Source of the DNA: Bolinopsis microptera
Lineage: Eukaryota; Ctenophora; Tentaculata; Lobata; Bolinopsidae
Direction of reading: 5' to 3'
Assembly (NCBI RefSeq): GCF_026151205.1
Contig: NC_087083.1
Coordinates: forward strand, 7,852,460-7,916,459
Length of the DNA stretch: 64,000 nt
Positions 9,131 through 62,137 of the stretch are shown here, one piece after another; the stretch's first letter is position 1, and every line of letters begins with the position of its first letter. The notes beneath the pieces were generated by a model that was not told the DNA's origin, made no database searches, and saw nothing but the letters and a program-made list of their open reading frames with translations. The position numbers and the translations under genes were made by a program.

Positions 9131-11273
9131 GGGTCGTTCACATATTACGTAATCACTGAGGGGAGGGATGGGTGTCTTAATCACTAAGGGGAGGGAGGGG
9201 TGTCTTAATCACTAAGGGGAGGGAGGGGTGTCTTAATCACTAAGGGGAGGGAGGGGTGTCTTAATCACTAAGGGGAGGGAGGGGTGTCTTAATCACTAAG
9301 GGGAGGGAGGGATGTCTTAATCACTAAGGGGAGGGAGGGGTGTCTTAATCACTAAGGGGAGGGAGGGGTGTCTTAATCACTAAGGGGAGGGAGGGGTGTC
9401 TTAATCACTAAGGGGAGGGAGGGGTGTCTTAATCACTAAGGGGAGGGAGGGGTGTCTTAATCACTAAGGGGAGGGAGGGGTGTCTTAATCACTAAGGGGA
9501 GGGAGGGGTGTCTTAATCACTAAGGGGAGGGAGGGGTGTCTTAATCACTAAGGGGAGGGAGGGGTGTCTTAATCACTAAGGGGAGGGAGGGGTGTCTTAA
9601 TCACTAAGGGGAGGGAGGGGTGTCTTAATCACTAAGGGGAGGGAGGGGTGTCTTAATCACTAAGGGGAGGGAGGGGTGTCTTAATCACTAAGGGGAGGGA
9701 GGGGTGTCTTAATCACTAAGGGGAGGGAGGGGTGTCTTAATCACTAAGGGGAGGGAGGGGTGTCTTAATCACTAAGGGGAGGGAGGGGTGTCTTAATCAC
9801 TAAGGGGAGGGAGGGGTGTCTTAATCACTAAGGGGAGGGAGGGGTGTCTTAATCACTAAGGGGAGGGAGGGGTGTCTTAATCACTAAGGGGAGGGAGGGG
9901 TGTCTTAATCACTAAGGGGAGGGAGGGGTGTCTTAATCACTAAGGGGAGGGAGGGGTGTCTTAATCACTAAGGGGAGGGAGGGGTGTCTTAATCACTAAG
10001 GGGAGGGAGGGGTGTCTTAATCACTAAGGGGAGGGAGGGGTGTCTTAATCACTAAGGGGAGGGAGGGGTGTCTTAATCACTAAGGGGAGGGAGGGGTGTC
10101 TTAATCACTAAGGGGAGGGAGGGGTGTCTTAATCACTAAGGGGAGGGAGGGGTGTCTTAATCACTAAGGGGAGGAGGGGTGTCTTAATCACTAAGGGGAG
10201 GGAGGGGTGTCTTAATCACTAAGGGGAGGGAGGGGTGTCTTAATCACTAAGGGGAGGGAGGGGTGTCTTAATCACTAAGGGGAGGGAGGGGTGTCTTAAT
10301 CACTAAGGGGAGGGAGGGATGTCTTAATCACTAAGGGGAGGGAGGGGTGTCTTAATCACTAAGGGGAGGGAGGGGTGTCTTAATCACTAAGGGGAGGGAG
10401 GGGTGTCTTAATCACTAAGGGGAGGGAGGGGTGTCTTAATCACTAAGGGGAGGGAGGGGTGTCTTAATCACTAAGGGGAGGGAGGGGTGTCTTAATCACT
10501 AAGGGGAGGGAGGGGTGTCTTAATCACTAAGGGGAGGGAGGGGTGTCTTAATCACTAAGGGGAGGGAGGGGTGTCTTAATCACTAAGGGGAGGGAGGGGT
10601 GTCTTAATCACTAAGGGGAGGGAGGGTGTCTTAATCACTAAGGGGAGGGAGGGGTGTCTTAATCACTAAGGGGAGGGAGGGGTGTCTTAATCACTAAGGG
10701 GAGGGAGGGGTGTCTTAATCACTAAGGGGAGGGAGGGGTGTCTTAATCACTAAGGGGAGGGAGGGGTGTCTTAATCACTAAGGGGAGGGAGGGGTGTCTT
10801 AATCACTAAGGGGAGGGAGGGGTGTCTTAATCACTAAGGGGAGGGAGGGGTGTCTTAATCACTAAGGGGAGGGAGGGGTGTCTTAATCACTAAGGGGAGG
10901 GAGGGGTGTCTTAATCACTAAGGGGAGGGAGGGGTGTCTTAATCACTAAGGGGAGGGAGGGGTGTCTTAATCACTGAGGGGAGGGAGGGGTGTCTTAATC
11001 ACTAAGGGGAGGGAGGGGTGTCTTAATCACTAAGGGGAGGGAGGGGTGTCTTAATCACTAAGGGGAGGGAGGGATGTCTTAATCACTAAGGGGAGGGAGG
11101 GGTGTCTTAATCACTAAGGGGAGGGAGGGGTGTCTTAATCACTAAGTGGTGGGAGGGGTGTCTTAATGCTATGCTGAACGATACCTATTATAAAACTGAT
11201 CGGGGGGATGGAGGGGGGAGGGGGGGGGTTGAAAATAGGCAAAAGAGTGATTACGTAATACGTGAACGACCGC
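9131..11273. mobile_element. TIR element swollen by a minisatellite
   Basis: Left end GGGTCGTTCACATATTACGT and right end (reverse complement) GCGGTCGTTCACGTATTACG pair over about 27 bp. TA flanks both ends (9129-9130 and 11274-11275), which fits a Tc1/mariner-type TA target. No transposase is present. Nearly all of the 2.1 kb interior is the 28-bp minisatellite, so a short MITE probably expanded internally. Confidence 0.65.
9152..11166. repeat. 28-bp G-rich minisatellite, about 70 copies
   Basis: Each unit has ggggagggagggg followed by tgtcttaatcactaa. Copies are almost identical over 2 kb. Rare variants are a G-to-A change (gggatg), two copies lacking one G, and one actgagg copy. The plus strand carries three G-runs per unit, giving a long array able to form quadruplex or triplex structures. 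Confidence 0.95.
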
Positions 11274-14788: not shown

Positions 14789-15385
14789 GCCACTGTAGGA
14801 ACTCCAACCAAAACTTCCCAGTTATATGAAAATGGTACGACGCGCTCACAAGAGGTATATATATTAAATTAACGTCATTTAGTTCGATATTTTATTTCTG
14901 TAAAAATACTTTCCTTAAGAGCTCAAATAGTCGACAGTCAGTAATACTATAAATAATCATACTTGCTGACCATTTTCTTACAAATCTGGTTTTAAAACTG
15001 TATTTGAGTCATTATCTGTCTGGTTTCAAACTTCAAAGAACTCAAATTTTTAAATTCCGCAAATGTGAAATTTATGTGATTTAAAAACACTATTTTAGTT
15101 ATTATCTGTCAGATATTAATGTTTTGGAGCCAGGGTGTGGTCAGGGAACTCACGTGGAGGGGGTTGCTTAAATAATTTACTTGTTTTGATATAGACTCCG
15201 AAACCATAGCAGAAAACAGGTAAAAACTTAAAAAGTAAGCAGTTAACTGTTTTCTAATTTCTTAGCTCAGACTACAGGTACTCATGAAGTAATTAGGCAC
15301 TTTAGCACTGATTCTCCTTTTCATAGTAGCAGGCCCATTAAAACATGAAAATAAGCTCACTGCATCCTGATCAAACACTGTTCAG

Positions 15386-15463
15386 GGTAAAGTTCAAGAA
15401 GCTAGAAACTACACATATGTGTTTTGAGACTGCAGATTTCTGTAACATGAAGTGCTCTGGAAG
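15386..15463 (+). CDS. Probable internal exon, Cys-rich protein
   Basis: A 78-nt open stretch between acceptor aaacactgttcag and donor GGAAG|GTGAGG. It enters and leaves in phase 2. It encodes about 25 residues with three cysteines close together (CFETADFCNMKC). It is joined provisionally to the exon at 16413, whose acceptor has the matching phase. Family not recognised. The call rests on splice-site quality and phase agreement, so it could still be chance. Confidence 0.4.
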
Positions 15464-16412
15464 GTGAGGATCGTTACTTAGTGTTGATTTTCGTCCTATT
15501 TTTAATAAAGTAATAATTATCGAATACAATATCTGAATTTTTCGTGGGGATCTTTATTTTAAGTCCGCTTTGCTTTTAACCATGGATTAATATGTTTTAC
15601 TATTATTAATATTACTACTTATTATTAATAATAACTGATAAAATCATATTTCCAAGCTGGTCCAATGTAAGGTATCTTTATCTAATAAGCTAATAGCACT
15701 CAATTATCATGCCGTGTTAATTATAAAAGTAAATTGTGTTTTACTTAATATAATATTATATATACTTATATATAAGTGTTAAGTGGGTCACGAAGGGAGA
15801 GGGGATTTTCAATGGCCAATAACGGCTTACGTAATGTAAAACACAACCATCTGGGGTTTCTTACACGTAATAGGTCAAAAATCTCGAGCACCCAATTAGT
15901 AGGCCGTGTCCTAAGTGGCCGTTATATCGCGTTAAGTGGTAGTTTTCTCTTTAAGTTTAAAAGCGTAATTTTGGAAAAATTGTCTTACATCCGAAAATTG
16001 TAATATTTTCACCCAGGAACAGGAACTACCTATTTAAACGCATTACCTAGGCCAAGTAATTGATCGATTATACATATACAAGATGCAAAGTAATTGAATT
16101 AGATAATGTTCGTTAAAATTCGGTTCAGTGACCGTTTTTATATTTTACATTTCTGACTTTCAGCCGCCGCATATAATGCAATTTTTGCTATCGGTGGAAT
16201 TTTATTTTCTTGGTACTATTCGCCAGGAGTCTCGGTATCTCAAATTACTAAAGACCACATTTAACGGGCTTTATTGTGATAAAATCTGCCACGTTTTAAA
16301 AAGAATTGAAATAATGAAGTAGCGTTGAAAGGTCTGGATCCACACCCCTCCTCCGCAAGATTTGCTCATTCACCCACCACTTACACCACTTTTATAAGGT
16401 TTATATCATTAG

Positions 16413-16599
16413 CCAAGACAAGACTGAGCTGCCGTACAAATGTGAAGTGTGGCGTGAAAGCCGCTCTCTCTTTACAGTTGACACTGGATATGAGTACAGC
16501 GTGTTTCACTCCGCACGCTGTGGACACGTGTTGACAACCAGATCACTTTTTACAGCTGGCTGGTTCAGACCTTGTTACTTACCTGATAAATACTGCTGA
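16413..16599 (+). CDS. Probable terminal exon, Cys-rich protein
   Basis: After the acceptor ggtttatatcattag the frame reads about 62 codons to TGA at 16597-16599. Residues look protein-like, with five cysteines, many aromatics and short motifs such as YKCEVWRESRSLF and AGWFRPCYLPDKYC. The phase fits the upstream exon at 15386-15463, giving the C-terminal part of what looks like an extracellular disulfide-rich domain. The same frame stays open upstream to about 16322, so an earlier acceptor is possible. An overlapping ORF in another frame (16325-16534) has poorer composition and I prefer this one. AATAAA follows at 16812. I do not recognise the family. Confidence 0.5.
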
Positions 16600-16811
16600 T
16601 GTGATGTGAGAATAGGTTCGGTTAATGTGATGGTCTCACTGGCCAGGCGACAGCTGCAGATTATAGTGTCTGGAAAATTTAGACTTTAACATTGTAAAAA
16701 GGCTTAGGATTATTTAAAAAATGAAACTTAGGAGCCATGCTAGATGGTGTAATGTCTTGCTGATACGGAAAGCACAGACTCTAGTTGGGACCTTATTCCT
16801 AAGTGTAATCC

Positions 16812-16817
16812 AATAAA
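16812..16817 (+). terminator. Poly(A) signal AATAAA
   Basis: AATAAA about 213 nt after the stop of the exon at 16413. Confidence 0.4.
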
Positions 16818-17017
16818 ATAGTGTAATTTAATAAGACCAGCTGTTGACAATAACGTGTGCCACTATGTAGTGGTGGTAATCATGTGAACACATCACAATA
16901 CTCACTTTGTACCCGTAAATAATACTGACTTTCTGTACAAAGTAAAATGATTTAAGACCCTCTAATTGCAGCATGTAGCTGAAAGTCGTGGAGACTGACA
17001 CTGGTTTGAGTTACAAC

Positions 17018-17085
17018 TCTTATCCAGTCGCGACGCGCGCACTGGCACGTGACCAGTCGCGATGCGCGCACTGGTCACCATGGTC
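17018..17085. promoter_or_regulatory. CpG-rich tandem duplication upstream of exon 17157
   Basis: Two copies of cagtcgcgacgcgcgcactgg (second with one change) separated by the E-box CACGTGAC and followed by a tandem ggtcaccatggtcacg. This is a CpG-dense island in an AT-rich region, about 75 bp before a candidate first exon. A promoter role is inferred from position only. Confidence 0.35.
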
Positions 17086-17156
17086 ACGTCATGCGGAGTA
17101 GTACACGCGTTTAAAAGTTGAGAGTTAATTGATGACAGCGTAACTACTACAACAAG

Positions 17157-17206
17157 ATGGTGGTTAATTGTCGTGACATTCCGATCTTAGCATTGACTAA
17201 GTTGTG
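17157..17206 (+). CDS. Candidate first coding exon
   Basis: ATG in good context (acaagATGG) opens MVVNCRDIPILALTKL and ends at a strong donor TTGTG|GTGAGTTGG in phase 2. The CpG-rich block just upstream supports a transcription start. The next exon is not identified. The terminal exon at 19757 is on the same strand, but its likely acceptors do not clearly match this phase. Function unknown. Confidence 0.4.
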
Positions 17207-17640
17207 GTGAGTTGGTTCCTAGTTCCGACTCACGTTTAGCTTTCTTTACTATTGAACTCTGTTTAGAGATACGCAACTAGCTGCAACATGTTGGTTAAGC
17301 TGGATGCGTTAATATAAGTTACTAGTTAGAAAGATAGACGAGTAATACTAATTTGTTTAAAAAAATAAAAATATTTATATTAGGTCATGGTAAATTATTG
17401 AATATTACAATTGTAAATATTATACTTATAGCACGATGGGCGGTAAAGAAATTTCTAAAAGATTATTGTAATATTTAGTATTTACGTAATTATCGTAATT
17501 GAAATTTTCATTCATTCAGATTACATTTTTCGTAAGATTTGATTGTAATGGAAATAATTTTAGAAATGTTATATCATGAACTTCTATTTTTACAACTTTA
17601 TGCTTAAAAACCTCGAAATTGATTCCACCAAAGCTTTATA

Positions 17641-18497
17641 GTAGAGGCTCTTACGGGCAAAAAGACGTGTTTTCTGCTACGAGTTTAGAGACCTAACCGC
17701 TAATTGGACACAATAGTATGATGTCTAAGGATCGATAATATGTTAAGAAGTATAAATTTGGCCTTATTAGTCACGTGCTATACCAATGCGCGTTTTAAAC
17801 TTTGACAGTCTATTACTCTAAGGCAAATAAAGTAATTATATTCATATTTTGTCAGCAATAAGATCACATTATTTTCTATTTAGTGTAAAAATATGAGCTA
17901 GAACGGACATAATCTCGCTGAGTTATAGCTGTTTGAAATTTATGATGAACGCGCGGGTGCCAATTGATAACAACTAAATGCTTTTGCGCGTAGTGCGCGT
18001 CGAAAATTTGGCAAAAACGCTTGCGGAGTGAAAATATTCAAACTTCGATAAAGTATATGAAGTGGGTACTTCTCGGAAAGGAAAAATTTAGGCAAACACG
18101 ATGTGACTATTTTTGGGTTGATTTAATACAACTGCAAAAAATTATTCAAACTTCAAGCAAAAAAGTCAAAATTTTTACCACTTTTTTGGATTTTTACCTC
18201 AGAACAAATAGAGGGATTTGTTTTATTTTTATACAATCTTGTGCGGCTGTCTTTTAGCTATCTTTATGCAAGTTTTGCCGACATGCCAACAAAATTAACT
18301 TGCTCAAAATATCAAAAAACATGGTTTTTTGGCCTATTTTTGGCCCAAAAATCGGTTTTTTGCGATTTTACCTCAGAACAATCAGTCCAATCATCTTGAA
18401 ACCACTTTCAATCGATTCTACGGTCAAAAATACGTCTAGTAAGGTGTATCTGGGGTCCCTAACGTATCGAGCAGACAATGCCCGTAAGAGCCTCTAC
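17641..18497. mobile_element. 857-bp TIR element with TA target
   Basis: Perfect inverted ends of about 20 bp starting GTAGAGGCTCTTACGGGC, with TA on both sides (17639-17640 and 18498-18499). The interior has two 67-78-codon ORFs without transposase motifs and repeats of ttttacctcagaacaa. A non-autonomous Tc1/mariner-like or related element. Confidence 0.8.
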
Positions 18498-18670
18498 TAT
18501 TAAATCATATGCTGCTGGAAACTCTACTCAAAAAATAAAATCTATGATGATCTCTCATCAAAGTAAAACTTAATTAATTAAGTTAATACACATCACCTTA
18601 ACACATGCAAACGCGTCTGTCTGAAAATCAAATAACTTACTTAATTAACAATTCCAATAGCACAGAAAAT

Positions 18671-18765
18671 TATATGAAAAAGTTTCCGTATTTTCACAGT
18701 AAATTATATGAAAAATTTTTCATATTTTCACAGTAAATTGTATGAAAAAGTTTTCATATTTTCCT
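18671..18765. repeat. About 34-bp tandem repeat, three copies
   Basis: Three slightly diverged copies containing aaattatatgaaaaa followed by a ttttcacagt-type end. Confidence 0.8.
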
Positions 18766-19756
18766 GTTTTATCTTCAATTTTACAAACGAGCTTAAGTAG
18801 ACTAGAAATATTACAATAATTCGACATATTCCGTCCTCGGTTCGTTGAATAATATTTATTATTCCAATGCTAAATACAATGAGCATTGATGAGCTAAATA
18901 CAATGCAGTCCGATAATCAGTGAAATTTCACCGAATGATGATTTTATTTTACAGACCAGCGTAGTTAAAAAGTCATGAAATTGTTTAAAATACTTTTTAG
19001 GCCGTCATGGTTGATTAATAAGAAAACAGGCTAAAATCTTAAATGTACATATTCAATTAAAGGAAAGGTATAGTATAGTGAAGAATGTCCATATAGAAAA
19101 TATTAACAGACGTTCATTTCATTATGAATTTTCGTTTTATATCTCTATAGCGCCAATTTAATTATTTCAATCAATTCTACGCTAAAAGAATAATTTAAAA
19201 CCATAAAATTCATAACTTTAAACTAACTATAAATATTTCAAGTTGCTAAACTAAAAAATAGTTCATAGAATCAAACACTATAAATCTACATTGACGGCTG
19301 TCTCTACAGAATGTATCATTATCAACTAGCAGAAAGCACATTTGATTCTCCAAACTTTGTATTGTATATATTGACGTACTTAATTGAACTAAATAAGATG
19401 ATGCAATTCCTGCTTAGTTACGTAGCTTTTATACTGTGAACGAATGTGCAAATAAGTCGATGACTTTAAAGGAATTTTCTAGTACTGTCTTTCTCGAACA
19501 ACTCTATAAGATATCTTTTTAAATTGAGGAATCTAAGATTGTTATCTCTGTTGAAATTGACCAATTTCTTTTAATAGATAGCGTACATGCTGTACGTGCA
19601 TATGATGTACGTTTATACGCACACAATACTTTAAACAGATATTCATAACTAACAGGGTGTGGTACTGCTCAGTTGCGTTACTTGTAAGTTTGTAACTGAC
19701 AGCTGCAGCACCCCACCTGCCTGAGGCACACCCTTCACTAGATACCATCATACTGA

Positions 19757-19927
19757 GGTGAAACAGGAAAACTCAGAGGTCATACCTCAAACTACAGTCT
19801 TGAAGTTGGAGGTGTGACGTTAAGAAGGTTCAGTCTTAAAGGGACCCTTGCTGTTTTAGGTAATACTAATCGGCTTCGCAGACTGGTTATAGATGAAATC
19901 ACAGGCGATATTCTCAACTGTCAATAA
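19757..19927 (+). CDS. Probable terminal exon of an unrecognised gene
   Basis: An open frame of about 56 codons ends at TAA 19925-19927 and reads like real protein: LRGHTSNYSLEVGGVTLRRF, then a basic and acidic end (NTNRLRRLVIDEITGDILNCQ without the final residues' context). An acceptor at accatcatactgag, or the stronger one cccttgctgttttag at about 19860, would make it a last exon. In the second case only the final 22 codons are coding. No consensus AATAAA follows closely. It may belong to the gene starting at 17157, but phases do not settle this. Confidence 0.4.
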   Translation, partial: GETGKLRGHTSNYSLEVGGVTLRRFSLKGTLAVLGNTNRLRRLVIDEITGDILNCQ

Positions 19928-20337
19928 GCCAGATTCTCGGGCATCATGCTGTTTGGTTTGATACCAAAAAAATGACAAATCATTCTCCCGGCCTTGCTAT
20001 ATAATATATATAGAGAAGCTGTTCCAACAAACTGTAACGACAAATATTTGTAGAACTGCTGACAGGGGCAATTAGTACAAGTTGTGAAGAGGGGGTAAAG
20101 TGAAGAAAATTGAAGGTTCCGAGTCTCTCTACTATGCTGTTGTCATGGTTACGGGCTCTCTCTCACTCTGGGTTGGAAAGGATTGCCATGGTGATTATCT
20201 GATCACATAATATAACAGAACTTACAAGTCATCAGCTACAATTAACAGGTCACACTTTATTTACTGTGAGCAAGTGTGGCTTATTATAATGGGTGCTGCT
20301 TTACCATGGACACGTGTAACTTTGTGTGTGGACGTGA

Positions 20338-20472
20338 ATGAAGCTACATTCAATCATTGAGAATGAGTGGTTGGTCTTGGCAACCTGCCAGTTTCACACT
20401 AGTTCTCAAGAGTGGTCTAAAAACCTACCGGACGGAGAGAAAGTTCTGCCTGTCAGTATTTGGCGTGTGTGA
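20338..20472 (+). CDS. Small ORF, 44 codons
   Basis: ATG to TGA encoding MKLHSIIENEWLVLATCQFH and then a polar half ending SIWRV. Codon use is balanced and unlike the surrounding AT-rich DNA, but no domain or signal peptide is clear. It could be a short peptide gene, part of an exon, or chance. A stop codon lies directly before the ATG, so it does not extend upstream in frame. Confidence 0.2.
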   Translation: MKLHSIIENEWLVLATCQFHTSSQEWSKNLPDGEKVLPVSIWRV

Positions 20473-21434
20473 GTGAGGGCTATTTATAGATGTAAAACAA
20501 CTATTGCTGTCAGCACATTTCCTGTGCAATCCACTCTCTGCTGGCATTTGCTTATAGTTTTAGACGACACGGGTATCCCTAAACTTAAGAACATCACGAA
20601 ACTAGTGACTTAATCACTTAATCAGGATGTAAATAATATGACACAAGTCTCATTAATCTCAACTTAATTACACGCTGTTTCTTATGTAAAACTAAGGATT
20701 GTGGCTTCTCTATACTCAATATATTGCGAGCATTCTCTAGAACATTTTCTTAGTCACGTGAATAAAGAATTGGAATTTAAAAAATACTTAAGTTATGATA
20801 TCATGCTTACATGAAATAGTACAGAGATGGAATTATTCTGGATATTAGTGATTTGCTTCCATCCTCCATTAAGTAATTCAGTATAAAATCTAGATTATCT
20901 TCACGATTAAGAGGGCAACGTAGATATGTGAAAAGTATAATCTAGTGAGTAGCAATAGATAACGATTCGCATAGCAAATAACGATCAAATAACTAACCGC
21001 ATTGTTAAGATCTAGTAGTATATGATGGAGGTGAACACAGAGGCAGCTGATATTATACTCATGAATATGTTATGCCCAGTTAGCCTAAGAACACGTTATA
21101 TTGAGGCAGAATAAATATAGGCTTGACTGTATTAGCGTATTGCGTAACTCTAATTTCTTAATATCAGAATGGAAGCAAGAACGTCAACCAATAGTAATAA
21201 AAATTACCTTTTTCAAAGGTGGATGGCAAAATGCTATAAATTACCATGCTGTTTATTCCATCTGTCCAATATTACCGTTATAGTTCTGATGAACCCTGTC
21301 ATTGTGACCGTTTCAAAATGTTTTTACTGTCCAGTAAAATCTTAATGTTAGAATAATATTTTAAGATAAAAAATTCTTTCACGTCGAATATATTACAAAG
21401 TAAATTGTTTTGAAAAACTCAATCACCCATTTGA

Positions 21435-21440
21435 TTTATT
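21435..21440 (-). terminator. Poly(A) signal of the fusogen gene
   Basis: TTTATT on the plus strand (AATAAA on the minus strand), about 100 nt beyond the TGA/TAG-side end of the 21542-24004 ORF. Confidence 0.55.
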
Positions 21441-21541
21441 TTCACGGAACAATTCCCTCTACAATGCTACAGTGCTCATTTACAAATACTAATACAGCTA
21501 AAATCTCGATCATAGCTATGGTTACTACTTTAAAAGGATTA

Positions 21542-24004
21542 CTAAAGCTCACTACTGTTCTTTAAAAGCAGCACTCTCGACCCATTCCTTGAGTGGCCTG
21601 GCCTCCTCGGAGCGTCTCTAATAATCTCTACTGCTTGTCCTCCTCTACTCAACAAACTCTCTGTAGAATTAGTCATTAGTTCCATCTCTTGGTCATTAAA
21701 CAGTGCTCTAGTCAAGTGCATTCTCGCTAGATTAGGTGATCCATGTCCCGGTGCTCTAGCTAAGCTTCTGGAGGAGCCAGTGTGATGAGTAGGAACCCTC
21801 TGGAGACTGGGAGAGGAGAGAGCTTCAGTGTCAACTCCGTCTTGTACGGTGTGTCGTCTCCCCATTCTGCTGAGAGCAACCGGTATTCTGGAGGGAGGTG
21901 GAGTAGCGCTGTAGGGGTTAGGGAGAGTGCTGCTCTTCTTTCCCATGATGGGGGTGAGGTTGAAGCCGGGAGTGGCAGCTCTGGGTGGGACAGGAGGAGC
22001 GTTGCTGAGCGAGCTGTTTACTGGCAGAGTGTAGGCTTTCCTCTGAGATTGAGGGGTGGAAGTGGAGGTTCTGGAGGACTGGGGAGTTGAGTTGGCTGTA
22101 GTGGAGAGGGTGGTGTTTTTATCCCACACGAATATGTTAGGGTCGGTTGTAGTCATCAGGGTGACGGGGTTGCCCTGGGCGTCATCTAGTTCGATGTACC
22201 GAGGAGTACTCACTAGGTAGGAGGGAGAGGATTCAGAGGACTGGGATCTGTGCCGATAGTTCATGTTTTGGTGGATTATATTCCCGTCAACAGCTGTTAA
22301 GTGATCCCTTATTTCATCTATTAGGACTCTCCTTTCCCTATCTCTCTCGTTGGACAACTTTGGTTGAACCTTCTCTCTTCGTTTCTTTAAAAAGTCGAAG
22401 TTGATCGGGCCAATAATGCAAGCCCAGCACTTTCCCAGACACCCGAAAACCTTCAATAGTTTCAAAACCACGCCGATAACAGTGAAAATACCCACAAGTT
22501 CTGTTGCCATTATCAAAGCCTCCTTCCAGTTCTTGATCCCGTTAAACCACTCTGCTGGGTTGAGATGTTTGGCCCAAGTTGCAGGTGATAAAATACTCAT
22601 CTTCTCTCCCTTTTCATAGTCAATAGCGGAGTCAGGCAGTTCAAATTCTTGAAGAAGTTCACGAATGCATTCAACAGGCTTGCAAAGTACTGACTCAACC
22701 CCAACCTCAGTAAAGAGGCAAAGCCGAGCTTGTTGGTGTGCTTCACAAAGGGAACTTAATCTGATGTAGAAGATGCTGGCGTCACTCTGATGTTCTGGAA
22801 TATTAATTTTGAAAACGTCAGTTTCACTATCCACTGTCAGGTTACCCCTGATGCTTCCTTCACCCTCGTAGATAGTGATATTGACGAAGTAGTTGGAATG
22901 TTTGTCCATCATGACCACGCCATCAAAATCACGGAAATGAGAGACATCAAACACCTGCACGACGGTATAGTCCCCCTCAAGCGTCAGAGTCAACTCAATA
23001 TTGCTGTATTGTCTGAAAAACGCCTCAACACTCCTCTCCTCGTCGGACCTCTCAACATGAGCAATGGACGTCTTGAACAACTGGTTCAGTTCAGTGGCCT
23101 GGTGGAATGTTTTCTGAGTGTTCTTGTTATCAAACTCCACATTAAGCTCATCACTATCACAATTGTCCACCTCCACGTTGAATGAGTCCATGATCTGAGA
23201 CTTGTCCATCTCGAACATACCCCTGGTGAACTTATACCAGCCCAACTTGTTTGTGTCGTACTCGGACAAACCGTTCAGCTCCACTCCTCCGTACAGCGTA
23301 TCTCCGGTATCAGAGCCAAAATACCAACCCGCTTTTAACGGTGATTGTATTGATGGAGCGGACACAGTTAAGTAGAAAGGTTTTAGTATGGGATGGCCCC
23401 CTTCAATGTCCACCTCAGTTGTAACTGTCCGCTGAGTATTGAGACTGGTGACACTAAACATGGCTCTGTTAGCTCCCGGACCCAGCTGTATAGCCTTCCA
23501 AATAGTCCTGTTCTGCGGGGTAACATTGATACTGCAGCACACTTCAGCACTGCCCGACAGAAACGCGGTACAACCAGAGTTGCTCTTGCCTTGCTCGTAC
23601 CAACTGTAGCAAGTACCTTGAGCTGCGAATATGCCGTTTTCCTTGCAACTGTCTGTGTTGGAACTACAGAAGTCCTCTGCTCCCGGACAATCACACACGC
23701 ACTTAACGTCCACATTGGGGATACCAAAGGAGTAGGAATTCGTGTACCGAAGCACACTTTTCACATCATCAAGTGAGATTCCGTACACTTCACTTTTATG
23801 CCAGTACTTGGCATTTTCGAGTGAAAAACAAGCGGTCTCTTTAAGACCCAGAGATATTGTAACGAGTGTCTGCTCGCTGAGCTTGCCGGTTACTCGGTCC
23901 CTAGTGAGGGTTCCCTTGTGGTGGATGGGCGGGGACTTACTGCAAAGCAGGGAGGAGTACCGGGGCAGCCAGCAGATCACGTGTAGTATTAGTATAATAA
24001 GCAT
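21542..24004 (-). CDS. FF-type (EFF-1/AFF-1-like) membrane fusogen
   Basis: An 820-aa type I membrane protein in one exon. Residues 1-20 form a signal peptide. The ectodomain (about 21-495) holds 16 cysteines if Cys21 is kept, including KCVCDCPG at 101-108, a TCYSWYEQG segment at 131-139 and CCSINVTP at 156-163. N-glycosylation sites are at N165, N375 and N388. One transmembrane segment lies at about 494-532, partly rich in cysteine (GCLGKCWACI). The roughly 285-residue tail is Ser/Thr/Pro-rich, with a PPVPPR SH3-type motif at 670-675 and several basic patches. Size, topology, cysteine count and the CxCxC-P-G block fit the FF family, class II-like fusexins that must sit on both membranes to merge cells. 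HAP2/GCS1 is the main alternative, but its hallmark layout is not evident. The tail is longer than I would expect for the nematode proteins. Family assignment is by memory of motifs, not by search. Confidence 0.7.
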   Translation of the reverse strand: MLIILILHVICWLPRYSSLLCSKSPPIHHKGTLTRDRVTGKLSEQTLVTISLGLKETACFSLENAKYWHKSEVYGISLDDVKSVLRYTNSYSFGIPNVDVKCVCDCPGAEDFCSSNTDSCKENGIFAAQGTCYSWYEQGKSNSGCTAFLSGSAEVCCSINVTPQNRTIWKAIQLGPGANRAMFSVTSLNTQRTVTTEVDIEGGHPILKPFYLTVSAPSIQSPLKAGWYFGSDTGDTLYGGVELNGLSEYDTNKLGWYKFTRGMFEMDKSQIMDSFNVEVDNCDSDELNVEFDNKNTQKTFHQATELNQLFKTSIAHVERSDEERSVEAFFRQYSNIELTLTLEGDYTVVQVFDVSHFRDFDGVVMMDKHSNYFVNITIYEGEGSIRGNLTVDSETDVFKINIPEHQSDASIFYIRLSSLCEAHQQARLCLFTEVGVESVLCKPVECIRELLQEFELPDSAIDYEKGEKMSILSPATWAKHLNPAEWFNGIKNWKEALIMATELVGIFTVIGVVLKLLKVFGCLGKCWACIIGPINFDFLKKRREKVQPKLSNERDRERRVLIDEIRDHLTAVDGNIIHQNMNYRHRSQSSESSPSYLVSTPRYIELDDAQGNPVTLMTTTDPNIFVWDKNTTLSTTANSTPQSSRTSTSTPQSQRKAYTLPVNSSLSNAPPVPPRAATPGFNLTPIMGKKSSTLPNPYSATPPPSRIPVALSRMGRRHTVQDGVDTEALSSPSLQRVPTHHTGSSRSLARAPGHGSPNLARMHLTRALFNDQEMELMTNSTESLLSRGGQAVEIIRDAPRRPGHSRNGSRVLLLKNSSEL

Positions 24005-24028
24005 TCACAGTGTAGGGGGAGGTTTCAT
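24005..24028 (-). promoter_or_regulatory. Upstream ORF abutting the fusogen start
   Basis: Minus-strand ATG at 24028-24026 opens a seven-codon peptide (MKPPPTL) whose TGA (24007-24005) is directly followed by the main ATG. It shares the main frame, so initiation at the first ATG stops immediately before the fusogen start. This layout could permit reinitiation or dampen translation. Confidence 0.45.
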
Positions 24029-24060
24029 TCCCTGAAAGTGAAAGTGGAAGTGAAAGTTTC
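24029..24060 (-). other. Splice-acceptor-like site before the fusogen start
   Basis: On the minus strand a pyrimidine-rich run (ctttcacttccactttcac) leads to tttcag|GG at 24033-24032, about 28 nt before the start codon. It could end a 5' UTR intron or accept a spliced leader. The uORF falls just after the cut and would stay in the mature mRNA. Confidence 0.45.
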
Positions 24061-26478
24061 ATATTCATCATGTGAACCGTGTTTATCAATATCATATTTA
24101 TCATAAAATAATGGTTGTGTGATGTAAGGTTCAGGCGTAATTAACTCGACTACCATGACGCTTATAAACACGTTGAAAACATTTCATTGTGTTTCAATTC
24201 TGTCTTTAGAAGTGATTTAAGTACTGAAAGCAATTGATTGTAACTTGCAATCGGTAGTATTTTTAGCCCACACAGAAGTTTAGAATAAAAAATATTATAT
24301 CCCACGTTGATCGCAGAATTCTTTGCCCCACGCTGTGGGCCTGCCGCGCACAACTGCGTAGCAAATATCCATGTCCACGAACTTGTACCAAGTAGTATCA
24401 AGAAAAAAACAGCATAATTTACTACATTTTAATCAGCAACGAGCGGAAACCTTTAAAGCGTTAACAAAAACTGAACCGTATCAAGAAAAACGCGGCAACC
24501 AGAATTAGCACAAACCAGGATTAGAACATTAAGTTTAACTACCATAAAGTGTGAACTTGACGACACGGCAGTTCTTGCCGCCAATACGAAACACAACCAT
24601 ACGTTTTTATAGTTCACCAATCAAACCATCGGTAATGACAGGTTCTCTATAAATGATTAAACATAATTAACAAATCCCTCCTCCAGATAGATATCACAAA
24701 ATATTCCACGGTAAAATTGGCAAAAACAGGATACAACACCTCCAAGAAATGAGTTCACTGAACGAAATAAAGAGAAAGGGTGGGATGACTTAACCTACAT
24801 CTGACATGACAACATTGCAGAGAGAGAACCCGGCCTAGAGAGAGAGAGAGCTGCTGATATCTCTCTCTCTCTCTCTCCCTCGCTGTGTCAGCAGCTATAC
24901 GCTCAGAACCTCGTGACGTGCCAATATATACTCATTCTGCAACTGCTCTGCTGTTAAAACACTAACATAGCTCACTCTCTGAGCGGGTTATATGGCTTCT
25001 GTTTTTGACATAGCAAGGAGAGAGAGAGAGGTAGAATTAGTCGGGTATAGTGGAATGTAACTGCGGAATTTTAGAAATTTATAGGAGAGGTCTCCACCTT
25101 GACTCACCCTGTTGGGTTGAGCGGTAGAAATTTAGAAAATTGAGGAGTTTGATTGAGGTGGAATTGGTTCCGTGCCATAATTAAAGGGTAAATATTTCGT
25201 ATGCAGGTTTGTTTAGGAATGGGATATGAGAGAGGTTGTGTTATAACTTTATGAACTTGATTTAAAAAGTTCGCGATGTTAACTTGTTGACCGAGTACAG
25301 GGTTAAACAAGAAATGTTTCAAGTTATCAAAGCCTTATAACTTGTTCAATTACCTTCTAGTGCTTAGCTAGATTCACAGAAGAACGATCACCTACTTTAA
25401 TATTCATAAAGATATAAATTATACGGGATTCCTTATTTAGACTTATATTATTATATGTAAAGATGATCTAACTTAGATAATCTAAGCAGTAAATTCTAAC
25501 TTAAATAATAATTTTAGCTTGACGCATCCTATTTTTGGCATCATCCAAATTGGTGAATTTGTGTCGAAAACATTTCAAATAGTCATTATAGATTACGCAA
25601 TAGTTTTGAAATAAAACGAAGCGTAATTTGATTAGAAAGGTGATTATCTTATCGGCCTTATAATGCGCGGAAATTGCTCAATTAATTACAAAGGCTGCGC
25701 ACAAGGTTTAATTTGCATTTGGTGATTTCTTAAGAATAATAAGTTTTAGGATAAAATAATCGTTTTGCTCAGTTAAAAAAATATGATCAGTCTAGGTAAT
25801 CTACATATTTAAAAACACCAGTGCTGCAAAATTGAAGGCAGTGATTCGGATAGGTCTGGTTTAGAAGCACTAAACCGAAACGATAATGACCATAATGTAC
25901 GTGAGACATAACTCAGTACGCACTTAAATATTTACACGAAAATCGAATTCACTGTCACAAGAATTAGCAGTAAAAGCCTAATGTTGAAATATTCATCCAA
26001 ATTGGAAAGATTACTTTTTTAAAATTGTCAGGGCCACTTTAATGAGACAGAGAAGCACAAATTATAATTGGCCGTTAACATGATCGATCAGTAGATGGTA
26101 AATTTCTCTAATTCAGGCAATCAATAAAAAAAGCTGATAGAAATTAATAAATAAAGTATAATAGACCCTGGTCATTATAGGGTCAATATGGCATAATTTA
26201 TCTTATAATGTTTAAACTATTTGACCTTAAAATATTTAAACTATTTTGCCAAATACCAAAAAGAAATTCGATGGAATGCTAGTCTACTCCGAAGCAAAAT
26301 AGCTTCCAGGATTAACTAATGAAACCCAACTTTGTAATGTGCTCTCCTTCCCGCAAGTATTTCTTGCAATATCTTATAATAATATAAATTATTGAAATAA
26401 AGGACAATCACTATGTCGTCCGACATGCGAAAACTCTCATAATCGTCAATAACTACTAGATTTAAAAAAAGTCATTAA
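24061..26478. other. Intergenic region between fusogen and SRCR gene
   Basis: No exon recognised. A (GA)n and (CT)n pair faces each other around 24838-24880 and 25018-25030. The minus-strand promoter or leader exon of the fusogen should lie here, but I cannot place it. Confidence 0.4.
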
Positions 26479-26484
26479 GTTTAT
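26479..26484 (-). terminator. Poly(A) signal of the SRCR gene
   Basis: AATAAA on the minus strand, about 77 nt after the TAG stop in the terminal exon. Confidence 0.6.
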
Positions 26485-26560
26485 TTCTCAAAAATAATTA
26501 TAAAGTTTCCCTTGAAGCTTATTGGTCCTCCTTTCTGTCCCTATATCCGTACCTTAACTC

Positions 26561-33769
<7,209 letters not shown>

Positions 33770-40181: not shown

Positions 40182-40273
40182 CATTTTTCTGCCTTCGACA
40201 TCATTTTTAAATGTTTTGTCGAAAGTCTTCTGTCTGAACTCATTGATCTCCTTTTCAGTAATACAAATAAGTT
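40182..40273 (+). pseudogene. Reverse transcriptase remnant, 5' piece
   Basis: An open frame beginning after TAA at 40179 (HFSAFDI..., ...LLSELIDLL) is cut at 40273 by the 21 kb element and continues in the same frame at 61381. It belongs to a widespread invertebrate RT family with a GIPMG motif, which I would place near Penelope-like RTs. No N-terminal domain is recognisable upstream, so the gene was already partial. Confidence 0.7.
40266..40273. repeat. Target site duplication AATAAGTT, left
   Basis: Identical to 61381-61388. It abuts the TIR start GGCACTATC. Confidence 0.88.
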
Positions 40274-41352
40274 GGCACTATCCGTCGCGGAGTCGAGTCC
40301 GCGGCGGAGCCGCCGGACTCCGGGCGGACTCCGAGCGGACTCCGGCGGAGCCGCCGGACTCCGAGCGGACTCCGGCGGTGCTCCGCCAAAATGTATTTAC
40401 AGTGGACTCGAGTACATTTTGGCGGACTCCGAGTGGAGCCGAGCGGACTCCGAGCGGACTTTAAAGTCCGCCGCGGACTCCGAGCGGCTCCGCGGCGGCT
40501 CGGCGGAGTGTCCGCCGCGGACTAAGCCACTAGGCGGACTCCGGTCCGCCGCGGACTCCGGCGGAGTGCTTGGCGGACTCCGCCGGACCTCTCCGCCAGA
40601 CTTGAATCCGGCGGAGTCCGGCGGAGCTTGGCGGAGTCCGCCAGCTCGGCGGACTCCGCTCGGAGTCCGCCGGACTCCAACAGAGTCCACTGACTTCCGA
40701 CCTCCGTCTTCCGACCCTCGGCTAAATTTGTCACGTGACATACAACATAGCATTTTGCAATATTGTGGTCAGATGAAAAGGTCGCTAGTGATAAACCTTA
40801 ACCATTACCCTCACAATGTCAATAGTGTACAACTCTAGTCCTAACTTTGACCCTATAATGTATAAACGTTGACCCTAACCCTCCACCAAACCGTCCGCAG
40901 CGAAATATCAATGTCATTGACTGGTCACGTGACCAAAACAATTTTTGTCATATTATCTCGATCATATGGGGAAGCGTTTTTAGCAAGCAAAAATACGTCG
41001 ACCATCACAGGACGACGCCAGCCAGCACTCTCTACGCTCTTCGAGCTCCGATCGTCCTGTGACGAAGTAAGGACGAAGCCTGAGGTCCTCAGGTAACATC
41101 GACCACCGATTGAAAATTTTTTTGACATAAAGGTCAAATGTAAAACTAAAATCTTGATGTTGATTGATTGACGACGTCAATTTTTGAGCACAGCGCGACT
41201 CGCGAACGCATATTGCGGAAAAGGACCGCGTAGCTAGTCAAGATGTTGATAAATATTTGGCTTGTTGCGCGATGTGTTGCTCTAACTATAGCCCTCTCGC
41301 TTGCAGTAGCGCGCGACCGCCGCGCCGGAGGCGGAAATGACCTGGTTAGCTA
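40274..41352 (+). repeat. Left TIR of the 21-kb element
   Basis: The first 420 bp are packed with short self-complementary blocks of cggactccg / cggagtccg type, GC-rich against an AT-rich background. The rest contains CpG-dense unique sequence with cacgtgac. The 188-codon ORFs here come from the stop-free GC-rich triplets and occur in both TIRs. Confidence 0.88.
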
Positions 41353-54068: not shown

Positions 54069-54178
54069 ACAACTGTAATAGCTCGCTTAGCTTGAACAAT
54101 GGATACACATAGCTGTTACTCTAATCAGAGGCTGAAGATAATATCATTAATAATACATAACATAAATAATACATAACA

Positions 54179-54572: not shown

Positions 54573-57500
54573 TCACGGGTTCACAAACCCGGTGTTAGCA
54601 TTATACCTGATCTTAGGTTTTGAACTCAACCTCCCCGAGCGTCTAACTGGCTCCTGACTACTGATCTGAGTGTTTGGTTGTGTCGGTTGGTTACTAGTCA
54701 CGACTGGCGATCCTTCTCTACTTGGACCCGGCTGCTGCCCCACTGTTATTACAGGTTGCTCAATATTCCTCGGCTCAGTGTTTCTTTCCGGTATCTCAAT
54801 TTGCTGCTTCTGTAACTCGATTACTGGCACTAACCGTTTCTTCATCGCCTCTACATGTTTCTTTATGATCCTACCCTTGTAGTTCACATCATACCACAAT
54901 GATTCTCCGTGTCTTTTTTCAATCGTTGCTGGTTCGTACTCTTTCCGAGTGTCAGGTCGAACCCATACTGTTTGTTTCTCCTCAAATACACGTTCGTTTC
55001 TTCTACTGTCAACAACTTTCTGTTCATTATCAACATTTAGTCTCTCCGCTTCCATCTGATCACTGGGTCTGAGGTGATGTAACTTAGATCGTAAAGTTCG
55101 TCCGTACATCATTACTGCTGGTGGTTGCTTAGTTACAGAGTGTGGAGTATTCCTATATGCCATTAGGAAGTTAGCGAGATTTAAATCTAAATCCTTAGAC
55201 TTTTCGTACATCTTTTTCATCGCTGACTTAAAACTCTGGACAAACCGTTCGCAGCTTCCGTTACTCCTCGGGGAGTATGATGGGCACAAAACATGTCTTA
55301 TCTGATTCTTCTTTAGGAAGTTCTTGAATTCTTCACTGATAAATTGCGGTCCGTTATCGCTGACTAGAACCCAAGGTACCCCTGTTCTTGAAAATACTCT
55401 TCTCATTGCTTTTATCGTAGCTGGCGCAGTAGTGTTATGAGACATCTTGATAACTTCCGGCCATTTTGAGTAAGTATCGTACATCAGTAACCAATAGTTA
55501 TTTTGGAATTCTCCAGCGAAGTCCACATGTACTCGTTGCCAGGGTCTTGTTGATTTAACCCAGGGATGGTCGATGACTTTTGGTAACTTTTTCCCGTGTT
55601 TTTGGCAGGATGCACATGCTTTAACTAAAATCTCTATATCTTGGTCTATTCCTGGCCACCACACATAGCTTCTAGCCAGGCTTTTCATTCCAGTCATCCC
55701 TACATGTGTAAGGTGTAGCATCTTAAGAACCTCTGCTCTTAGTTTATGTGGAATGATTACACGATTTCCCCATGTGATACATCTTTTTTCAGTCGTGAGT
55801 TGGTTCTTTCTGTCGTACATGGCTTTCATCTCCTTGTGATCTTTGTCTATCTTTTCCGGCCAGCCATCTACAATGTACATCGCTATCTTGCTCAGAATAA
55901 TGTCTTTGGATGTCTCCCGGGCAACTTCTTTTGCATCTATCAGTGCGTCCTCCATGGTCAAAGAAAATGCCTCTTCACATTCGTTTGGCTCGTCCACATG
56001 AATGACTTTTTTCGGGAATCTGGACATTACATCAGCATTAGCATGCTCTTTTGTATTTCTGTATACTATGTTATAATCGTAATTTTGTAACAGCAGTGCA
56101 TATCTGGATAATCTGTTCGCCGTCATCTCTGGAATGCCTCTCTTAGGTCCAAATATATGTACTAACGGTTGGTGATCCGTCACTAGTTCAAAGTGTCTTC
56201 CATACAGATACATATGAAACCTTTTTATAGCCCAGACTATCCCTAAAGCTTCTTTGTCAATCTGGCTATATTTTTTCTCAGCATTCGATAATGTCCTTGA
56301 AATAAATTCAACCGGACGTTCATTTGTTCCATCATCATCTATGTGTGACAATACAGCTCCCAAACCCACGCTGCTTGCGTCTGTATCCAGCTTCAAACGT
56401 TTCAGCGGGTTGTAGAACGTCAATACTCTGTCAGAACAAAGTAATTTCTTTAATTCTTCGAAGGCTTTCTGTTCAGTCTTTGTCCATCGCCATTCAACTT
56501 CAGTCTTTCTCAACTCGTCCAATGGAGCGATTATTGTCGACAAATCTGGTAGATACTTGCGATAATACCCAACTGCTCCCAGAAATGCTACTAAATTTTT
56601 CACATTTTCAGGTGCCTGTACTTTTAACAGATCGTCTATCTTGCTGTTGACTGGTGACATACCATGCTTGTTCACCTTGTGTCCTAGATAAATCACTTCT
56701 TCATGCATCAGCTTAGATTTATTCAGTCTGCATCTGAAACCGTTTGCTTCCAGTCTTCTCACAACTTTATTCAGATTATCTAAGTGCTCTTTATCGTTCT
56801 TTCCTGATATTAAAATGTCGTCTATCCTACAGCAAACCATAGGTATACCCCGTAGTACATTGTCCATCAGATTCTGAAAGATTGCTGCGCTGCTATTTAT
56901 TCCATACGGTAAGCGCGTCCACACATACTGTCCCATATGCGTATTCATTGTCGTGATGAGTTGATCTTCTGTTGATAGCTCCACGTTATTGTACGCTTGT
57001 TTTATGTCTATGACTGAGAACTTTTCTCCTCCCGAAACGCTTGCAAAACATTCTTCTGTAGTTGGTAACGGGTGATGTTTCATTTCCAATAGTTTGTTGA
57101 CTGCTTTAAAGTCTCCACATATTCTCACACCGTCTCCTTTTTTCACTGGCATAACTGGAGTTCCCCATGGGCTCTCTTTGACTTTCTTCAAAATTCCTTG
57201 TTTCACCATGTTGTCTAACTCCTTTTCCAGTAAGTCTTTAATAGCAAAAGGTACTGCTCTTGATTTCTGCGTGACAGGTCTGCTTCCCTCCTTCAATTGG
57301 AGTTGCACTTTATAGTTCTTTACCAGACCTAACTCATCTTTGAAGATGTCACTAGACATTATCTCTTGTACTGTCCGTATCTTTGTTGGTGTTCCAGGAT
57401 CTGTTTCATCGTCCACACTAACAAAATTTCTCAACTGATGTGTTCTAGGAGCAGTCTCTTCGTCCTCACATCGTTGTCCAGTTTTAAACTTTCTCTTGGC

Positions 57501-59222: not shown

Positions 59223-59297
59223 ATAGCTGTTACTCTAATCAGAGGCTGAAGATAATATCATTAATAATACATAACATAAATAATACATAACAACAAC

Positions 59298-60238: not shown

Positions 60239-61380
60239 TAGCTAACCAGGTGCTTTCGCGCCGCTGCGGGCGCGCTTGTTCCACAAGTCATTTCCGGCGG
60301 TCGCGCGCTACTGCAAGCGAGAGGGCTATAGTTAGAGCAACACATCGCGCCACAAGCCAAATATTTATCAACATCTTGACTAGCTACGCGGTCCTTTTCC
60401 GCATGCGCTCGCGCTGTGCTCAAAAATTGACGTCGTCAATCAATCAGCATCAAGATTTTAGTTTTACATTTGACCTTTATGTCAAAAAATCTTTGAATTT
60501 TCAATCGGTGGTCGATGTTACCTGAGGACCTTAGGCTTCGTCCTTACTTCGTCACAGGACGATCGGAGCTCGAAGAGCGTAGAGAGTGCTGGCTGGCGTC
60601 GTCCTGTGATGGTCGACGTATTTTTGCTTGCTGGGATCCGGCCGAATGACGCCACATGCAACGTGTAGGGTAAAACTAAAAACGCTTCCCATATGAGATA
60701 ATATGACAAAAATTGTTTTGGTCACGTGACCAGTCAATGACATTGATATTTCGCTGCGGACGGTTTGGTGGAGGGTTAGGGTCAACGTTTATACATTATA
60801 GGGTCAAAGTTAGGACTAGAGTTGTACACTATTGACATTGTGAGGGTAATGGTTAAGGTTTATCACTAGCGACCTTTTCATCTGACCACAATATTGCAAA
60901 ATGCTATGTTGTATGTCACGTGACAAATTTAGCCGAGGGTCGGAAGACGGAGGTCGGAAGTCAGTGGACTCTGTTGGAGTCCGGCGGACTCCGAGCGGAG
61001 TCCGCCGAGCTGGCGGACTCCGCCAAGCTCCGCCGGACTCCGCCGGATTCAAGTCTGGCGGAGAGGTCCGGCGGAGTCCGCCAAGCACTCCGCCGGAGTC
61101 CGCGGCGGACCGGAGTCCGCCTAGTGGCTTAGTCCGCGGCGGACACTCCGCCGAGCCGCCGCGGAGCCGCTCGGAGTCCGCGGCGGACTTTAAAGTCCGC
61201 TCGGAGTCCGCTCGGCTCCACTCGGAGTCCGCCAAAATGTACTCGAGTCCACTGTAAATACATTTTGGCGGAGCACCGCCGGAGTCCGCTCGGAGTCCGG
61301 CGGCTCCGCCGGAGTCCGCTCGGAGTCCGCTCGAAGTCCGGCGGCTCCGCCGCGGACTCGACTCCGCGACAGATAGTGCC
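60239..61380 (-). repeat. Right TIR of the 21-kb element
   Basis: Reverse complement of 40274-41352 with small differences. It has an extra block of about 45 bp near 60640-60682 and other short indels near 60250-60290. Confidence 0.88.
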
Positions 61381-62137
61381 AATAAGTTTATTTGCGTGTC
61401 TAACTATAGCGACAATTGTTTTTTCTCCAAAAAGGAATACAACGGTTTTATCTGCTTCTCGCTCGATAAGCTGAAAGACGCCATTAAATTTATATTGCTC
61501 AATACTTTTGTTTCTTTTGGAGGTCAGATCCTCAGACAGACGAAAGGTATTCCCATGGGAGGGAATTCAAGTGGTCAGTTCGCCGATCTTTCTTTATGGA
61601 AGTGTGAATTTAACTACATGACCAAACTCATCAAGGAAAAGAAGTTCAGCCTTGGTAAGCTTATCTCTAAGAACTGCAGATGTGTTGACGATCTCGGCAC
61701 TATATCAACTATCTAAAGTTTGCCAATCTCATCAGGACAATCTATCCACCAGACCTACTCATGGAGAGAAGTGGTGACGACAATAAGAACATCAACTACC
61801 TTGACATTAACATTTCTTTAAGTGAGTCAGGTATCGTCACAACCAAGCTATACAACAAGCCATGTTTACCTTCCCTAATAGTAATATTTCTTCTTCTGTT
61901 GGATACAATGTCTTTTATGGTGAGGTCCTACGTTATTCTTCCAACATCACAAGTCTTGATTCCTTCTTAAGGTCTATTAATTTACTGTACAGAATCCTTA
62001 TCTCAAGAGCTTATGATGATAGACTCTTTAAGAAGAAGTTCATAAAGTTGATGAGTGACCGACCCAACGTACTTCACAAGAACGGAATATTTGATGTCAA
62101 CGACATATTCGACATCGCATTCAATGTGGACAGGTGA
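61381..62137 (+). pseudogene. Reverse transcriptase remnant, 3' piece
   Basis: Starts with the second AATAAGTT and continues the frame of 40182-40273. It contains RQTKGIPMGG, then the catalytic region NCRCVDDLGTI, followed by IYPPDLL and NYLDINISL in a second frame and a C-terminal part in a third. At least two shifts (near 61716 and 61865) kill it. The aromatic of the usual YxDD is a Cys here. Confidence 0.75.

Follow-up and report, generated by a model that had tools for sequence, protein, structure and literature searches.

A single-exon ctenophore gene for an FF-family fusexin with an altered domain II tip, a candidate cell-cell fusogen

Introduction

AFF-1 of Caenorhabditis elegans belongs to the same family as the cell fusogen EFF-1. 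HAP2/GCS1 and the class II proteins of viruses are placed in the same fusexin superfamily by published structure and carry a hydrophobic domain II tip (PMC8784728; papers given by PMC number are cited throughout from excerpts). Members of the FF (EFF-1/AFF-1) family are known in nematodes, a few arthropods, a ctenophore, a chordate and a protist (PMC4723337), so their presence in ctenophores is not in itself new. Here we describe an FF gene from the ctenophore Bolinopsis microptera, located in a 64,000-nucleotide stretch of contig NC_087083.1 (positions 7,852,460 to 7,916,459; the window), and its relatives in the same genome. This ctenophore has about a dozen FF-like loci, the gene among them, and judging from its sequence the encoded FF-branch fusexin is likely to act as a cell-cell fusogen by the mechanism outlined below. 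New in this work are the size of the family, a changed tip loop, a changed last cysteine pair and evidence of selection; our searches of the open-access literature, which leaves subscription journals mostly outside, turned up no title or opening of an abstract that describes a ctenophore FF family.

A syncytial nerve net was reported in 2023 for the ctenophore Mnemiopsis (PMC7617566, PMC10730927). In the excerpted text of PMC10730927, PMC9816575 and PMC7617566, the terms fusogen and EFF-1 occur in the reference lists only. The FF-like loci described here are candidates for the fusion of the ctenophore nerve net and of other fused tissues. If ctenophores are the sister group of the other animals, these genes also bear on whether the first animals already had this fusogen family.

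Results and discussion

The gene encodes a member of the FF family

The FF protein matches the Pfam family EFF-AFF (PF14884) with 198.9 bits against a cut-off of 25 (E 1.6e-58). The match covers positions 1-467 of the 467-position profile and residues 52-488 of the protein. The sole other Pfam entry up to E 10, Sialidase-like_CBM, reaches 13.9 bits against a cut-off of 27. In a search of the PDB, C. elegans EFF-1A (4cyl, 4ojc, 4oje, 4ojd) provides the only matches up to E 10, the best at E 5.4e-26. A profile built from the FF protein and seven relatives from the same genome finds EFF-1A at E 1.3e-55, accompanied by a gp160 fragment (E 8.5) and a PGRP domain (E 9.2). Scanned singly, all eight members match EFF-AFF, and none matches another Pfam family at E 0.01. 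We regard this as decisive sequence evidence that the gene encodes a true FF fusexin, an assignment as firm as sequence allows. A preliminary description of the locus had proposed an FF-family fusogen and named the lack of a significant EFF-AFF match, together with a predicted structure lacking the fusexin fold, as grounds for abandoning the idea; since the PF14884 and EFF-1A matches are both significant, those grounds are absent on the sequence side.

Homology to EFF-1 (4cyl, 4ojc) runs along the ectodomain, stem and membrane helix, with 120 of 489 residues (~25%) identical in the phmmer alignment. Both proteins have a single membrane helix and an LNPAxW stem. The FF-protein ectodomain contains 16 cysteines (residues 21, 59, 102, 104, 106, 113, 120, 132, 145, 156, 157, 282, 420, 429, 441 and 446), a number already given in the preliminary description and borne out by our count on the assumption that C21 is retained after signal-peptide cleavage at its presumed site. 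EFF-1 likewise has 16 cysteines in residues 35-560, and 14 are matched between the two proteins: 12 in the phmmer alignment, C59 through the eight-member profile, which lengthens the EFF-1A match toward the N-terminus and aligns C59 with EFF-1 C75, and C21 by eye, where CSKSPPI corresponds to CSKTPI around EFF-1 C40. The previously noted CxCxC-P-G block is CVCDCPG at residues 102-108. Further cysteines are C11 in the signal peptide and C522, C526 and C529 past the membrane helix.

By hydropathy the protein has type I topology, with a signal peptide, one membrane helix and a cytoplasmic tail. Hydropathy is maximal at residues 496-514 (mean Kyte-Doolittle 2.33), and apart from the N-terminus, this segment and the stretch that continues it to ~531, no part of the chain exceeds a Kyte-Doolittle value of 1.6. 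The single helix (~496-518) and the tail of about 285 residues (exactly 285 from residue 536) of the preliminary description are thereby recovered. From the homology to EFF-1 we infer a three-domain class II fold for the ectodomain.

The preliminary description had also proposed profile searches against both the EFF-AFF family and HAP2. HAP2/GCS1 (PF10699) is not among the Pfam entries up to E 10 for the FF protein, and the PDB matches up to E 10, whether obtained with the FF protein or with the eight-member profile, include no HAP2 or viral class II protein. The genome as a whole also gave no PF10699 match, as might be seen if an FF protein had replaced HAP2 as gamete fusogen in the germ line. 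However, that search detected none of 14 controls; it is therefore uninformative, and the absence of HAP2 from this genome is not shown by it. Both FF proteins whose function is known, EFF-1 and AFF-1, act in the fusion of somatic cells (PMC9259645), and we consider a germ-line role very unlikely.

About a dozen FF-like loci

We searched 264,652,675 bases in 232 contigs, among which contig C12 carries the FF gene. A protein search returned 18 matches, the FF gene included, and a Pfam search returned 13, all above the cut-off. Grouped by position, with tblastn on fetched regions, these resolve into 12 FF-like loci, the FF gene and 11 others. They lie on six contigs: C12; C1 at 1.04, 3.64, 11.473 and 11.474 Mb; C6 at 4.21 and 12.72 Mb; C7 at 13.39 Mb; C9 at 14.59 Mb; and C13 at 10.85, 13.26 and 15.73 Mb. 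Several appear to contain introns. Pfam detects ten of the 12, while the loci on C7 and at C1:1.04 Mb were found by protein similarity only, the latter through its stem and membrane helix alone. The copy at C1:11473122-11473838 (L043) adjoins another FF paralogue, and its frame lacks a segment equivalent to C420-C446; it may be shortened or degenerate.

A tree built from ten of the 12 rows of the family alignment, cut to residues 52-530 of the FF protein (rows J and K left out, and C1:1.04 Mb never aligned), joins the FF gene and the locus at C1:3.64 Mb (L045) with support of 100/100. It places EFF-1 on long branches without resolving its position, and we therefore make no claim of orthology to EFF-1 or AFF-1.

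The distribution of the loci also bears on a viral origin, in which the gene would encode a class II envelope protein captured from a virus or would be a retroelement's envelope gene. Viral class II proteins have the same fold (PMC8784728), and a retrotransposon pol frame lies ~30 kb from the FF gene. Yet the family that the protein matches, EFF-AFF, is a cellular one, the loci are spread over six contigs and several appear to be interrupted by introns, and no repeat of at least 30 bases brackets the gene within window positions 15000-30000. Viral contigs were scanned as well, with sensitivity to close relatives only, and no relative was confirmed. We judge capture from a virus or retroelement to be extremely improbable. 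The lack of a flanking repeat pair in that interval likewise led us to reject a retrogene or retroelement origin, and a single exon is not special in this genome, where 10 of the 32 regions matching the ligand domain of glutamate receptors (PF10613) fall within open reading frames of more than 900 codons. A scan of bacterial and archaeal contigs, again sensitive to close relatives only, confirmed no FF relative.

The domain II tip loop differs from that of EFF-1

In EFF-1 an acidic EDD motif sits on the tip of domain II, in a highly acidic loop (PMC4050280). We place it at residues 179-181 of the 658-residue chain by assuming a 22-residue offset from the published positions 157-159, with which the DDE motif at 91-93 (published as 69-71) agrees. 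The EFF-1 tip has been contrasted with viral class II proteins (PMC4050280, PMC8784728) and HAP2 (PMC8784728), whose loops are hydrophobic, and its surface is deemed unlikely to interact with lipid membranes (PMC8784728). The view that FF proteins, unlike viral and gamete fusexins, do not insert into lipid rests on EFF-1, and a hydrophobic tip would put it to the test.

The loop between the conserved Gly-Cys and Cys-Cys reads SEDDIPKL in EFF-1 and TAFLSGSAEV in the FF protein, a hydrophobic tip where that of EFF-1 is acidic. Hand-picked from the translations, the loop is readable at nine of the 12 loci (those at C7, C13:10.85 Mb and C1:1.04 Mb being unreadable): TAFLSGSAEV (twice), GVFSPMGAAEI, VWITGSGQS, FLDAVKQVAGRSRI, VVVGGEAVS, VWVGGEATT, SITLGRSQL and SIQNYGRSQM. 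None of the nine contains EDD. In the raw count, the mean hydropathy of the first five loop residues is positive in eight of the nine, against -1.36 in EFF-1. Compared with EFF-1, the sole comparator, such non-acidic, hydrophobic loops hint at direct insertion into the membrane.

Ectodomain and tail are constrained differently

The ectodomain shares 66.8% of its residues with that of the nearest paralogue (C1:3.64 Mb) over 458 aligned codons, at a pN of 0.208 and a pS of 0.855, which is saturated. The stem and helix give a pN of 0.173 and a pS of 0.885 (75 codons). The two tails share 28.9% of residues over 173 codons, at a pN of 0.515 and a pS of 0.722, in an alignment that is uncertain. That the ectodomain remains ~67% identical while synonymous sites are saturated indicates that selection preserves the protein. 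The substitution pattern points to strong purifying selection on the ectodomain and weaker constraint on the tail.

Measured from the motif at the end of the membrane helix, tails at nine of the 12 loci are 306 (FF protein), 211, 11, 28, 82, 42, 101, 48 and 367 residues long, values that may be incomplete for multi-exon loci; that of the FF protein is the second longest. The tail of EFF-1 is shorter, at 97 residues with the helix included (I562-I658; PMC9259645), against 285 in the FF protein. The FF protein and its nearest paralogue share PRYI(E/D)LD, which contains a YxxPhi-type motif, in tails that are otherwise poorly conserved. The FF protein ends in S-E-L (21545-21553, minus strand), and the nearest paralogue ends differently. 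S-E-L fits a class I PDZ ligand.

A protein that had ceased to be fusogenic and served as an adhesion or signalling receptor, with the long tail as its working end, would account for several of these features: tail length ranges from 11 to 367 residues, the FF-protein tail carries PPVPPR, a YxxPhi motif and S-E-L, and a family of this size leaves room for new roles. Against it, constraint is stronger on the ectodomain than on the tail, and the stem-membrane sequence LNPAxW followed by GI is retained from nematode EFF-1 to the FF protein. Both would be expected if selection acts on work at the membrane, and we think the receptor explanation unlikely.

The preliminary description had suggested that an SH3-type motif in the tail couples fusion to the cytoskeleton. 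The motif, PPVPPR at residues 670-675, is present; coupling to actin is weakly supported, as the motif occurs in none of the eight other measured tails. In shuffled tails the generic PxxPx[RK] pattern arises by chance in ~26% and PPxPPR in ~0.2%. On these two grounds we set PPVPPR aside as the main evidence of actin coupling; that it is an SH3 ligand is a fair guess without conservation behind it. In favour of actin coupling, actin polymerization improves EFF-1-driven fusion and EFF-1 colocalizes with F-actin (work cited in PMC8784728). A precedent for such coupling is the reovirus fusogen p14 FAST, an unrelated protein with a very short ectodomain; its cytoplasmic tail recruits an adaptor to trigger actin assembly by N-WASP (PMC7244324). 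EFF-1 is regulated by internalization (PMC8784728), and loss of the EFF-1A tail delays fusion but does not prevent it (PMC4723337). Because EFF-1 is controlled in this way and its tail merely speeds fusion, we prefer, by analogy, a role of the FF-protein tail in trafficking over one in actin coupling.

A possible fusion mechanism

As a cell-cell fusogen, the FF protein would be displayed on both of the cells that are to fuse, its three-domain class II ectodomain facing outward. The ectodomain would engage its partner, trimerize and fold back into a hairpin, whereby the conserved stem and the membrane helix would draw the two bilayers together until a fusion pore opens. At the domain II tip, the short hydrophobic loop, which takes the place of the acidic one of EFF-1, probably contacts lipid directly. 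The cytoplasmic tail, which would be dispensable for the fusion step itself, probably sets the place and time of surface display via trafficking signals such as PRYIELD. Fusion activity, loop insertion, the role of the tail and the tissue in which the FF protein works are all points that we infer.

The same machinery could serve a single cell, by exoplasmic scission of its membranes or by sealing or repairing them. Nematode AFF-1, from the same family, is needed for endocytic scission and tube elongation (PMC5931541). No feature of the sequence favours such a role over fusion between cells, and the two are compatible in one protein; we rate action confined to single cells as distinctly unlikely.

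Several observations weigh against a fusogen with an inserting tip. AlphaFold2 run without an alignment on residues 23-520 gave a mean pLDDT of 33.8 and a pTM of 0.23; this single-sequence model is unusable, so the predicted fold depends on the ~25% identity to EFF-1. The last cysteine pair is C420/C446 in the FF protein and C525/C528 in EFF-1. Outside this genome the FF protein was compared with EFF-1 only, and a hydrophobic tip may for that reason prove common outside nematodes. Among the loops, the exception at the first five residues is SIQNY (mean -0.92), so that the C1:11.473 Mb copy is not hydrophobic at its tip, and over the whole loop SIQNYGRSQM is as polar as that of EFF-1 (-1.19 and -1.06, respectively). 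Five of the nine loops, including that of the FF protein, retain one glutamate and a net charge of -1, and a sixth has an aspartate. Two of the nine are identical, and the C9 loop starts at the edge of its open reading frame and could be misread. Finally, the acidic tip of EFF-1 has itself been suggested to touch lipid head groups (PMC4050280).

Beyond the cell-cell fusogen proposed for this locus, the loops invite a broader and rather doubtful extension: a large ctenophore FF family whose hydrophobic fusion loops insert directly into the partner membrane, as those of HAP2 and viral class II proteins do, possibly from one side only, unlike EFF-1, and whose members build different fused tissues, the syncytial nerve net among them.

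Gene structure and sequence features

The single-exon frame had been located exactly in the preliminary description, which did not state that it lies on the minus strand. The coding sequence begins with an ATG immediately preceded by an in-frame TGA. Read on the plus strand, the same interval contains 27 stops, and in 200 mononucleotide shuffles of window positions 20001-26000 the longest stop-free run was 196 codons, against 820 for the gene. An AATAAA follows the stop codon by ~100 bases. Upstream of the ATG, a pyrimidine-rich tract ending in CAG (~24032) resembles a splice acceptor when read by eye, which makes an intron in the 5' untranslated region possible. The G+C content of the window is 38.25%.

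Table 1 Features of the FF gene and its protein, in window coordinates
Feature	Position	Strand	Evidence
Coding sequence, FF-family (EFF-1/AFF-1-like) type I membrane protein, 820 residues, single exon	21542-24004	minus	Open reading frame; Pfam EFF-AFF, E 1.6e-58
Probable signal peptide, residues 1-20	23945-24004	minus	Hydrophobic N-terminus, Kyte-Doolittle 1.81 over residues 2-20; presumed cleavage position
EFF-AFF ectodomain, residues 52-488	22541-23851	minus	Pfam; alignment to EFF-1A of known structure
CVCDCPG (CxCxC-P-G) block, residues 102-108	23681-23701	minus	Cysteines align with EFF-1 C131, C133 and C135
Domain II tip (cd-loop equivalent), residues 145-157, C-TAFLSGSAEV-CC	23534-23572	minus	Acidic EDD of EFF-1 replaced
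Conserved juxtamembrane stem WAKHLNPAEWFNGI, residues 477-490	22535-22576	minus	Paralogue alignment; EFF-1 equivalent LNPAHWIKGI
Single transmembrane helix, ~residues 496-518	22451-22519	minus	Hydropathy; approximate ends
Cytoplasmic tail, residues 536-820, Ser/Thr/Pro/Arg-rich	21545-22399	minus	Sequence
PRYIELD, residues 601-607, contains YxxPhi-type YIEL	22184-22204	minus	PRYIDLD in nearest paralogue
PPVPPR, SH3-ligand-like, residues 670-675	21980-21997	minus	Not in eight other measured tails
AATAAA, polyadenylation-type signal	21435-21440	minus	Sequence
Splice-acceptor-like pyrimidine tract ending in CAG, upstream of ATG	24032-24050	minus	By eye

Genomic neighbourhood

Besides the FF gene, ten open reading frames of the neighbourhood, chosen from among 191 and the retrotransposon frame, were scanned against Pfam; four of the ten gave a match. 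The minus strand at 27174-33474 carries a cluster of scavenger-receptor cysteine-rich (SRCR) exons, confirmed by Pfam in the frames at 27666-28091, 29131-29724 and 31352-31945, with more seen by eye. The latter two frames are near-identical, and the cluster is interspersed with long CT arrays and tandem repeats of 59 bases. SRCR genes are abundant in ctenophores (PMC11797021).

The retrotransposon frame, also on the minus strand (54573-59234), has 1553 codons and encodes an aspartyl protease, reverse transcriptase, RNase H and integrase, as in a Ty3/gypsy-like polyprotein. One 16-base tandem repeat flanks it at 54141-54178 and 59255-59292. A G+C-rich element, perhaps a non-autonomous mobile element, is present in two copies of opposite orientation with almost identical translations, at 40182-40835 (plus strand) and 60819-61403 (minus strand). 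A 28-base tandem array at 9150-11167, G-rich on the plus strand, comprises 72 copies with 99% matches.

Elsewhere in the genome, the 32 matches to PF10613 lie on contigs C1-C9 and C12; the ten in frames of more than 900 codons are each in a single open reading frame, and some of the matches are clustered (C12 at 11.78-11.81 Mb, C3 at 15.86-15.94 Mb). One glutamate-receptor frame of this genome (L018) scores 432.5 bits with Mnemiopsis ML032222a, 223.7 with 4zdm_A and 176 with GluR2. At its best locus in this genome, the ML032222a ligand domain finds 72% identity for one half and 75% for the other.

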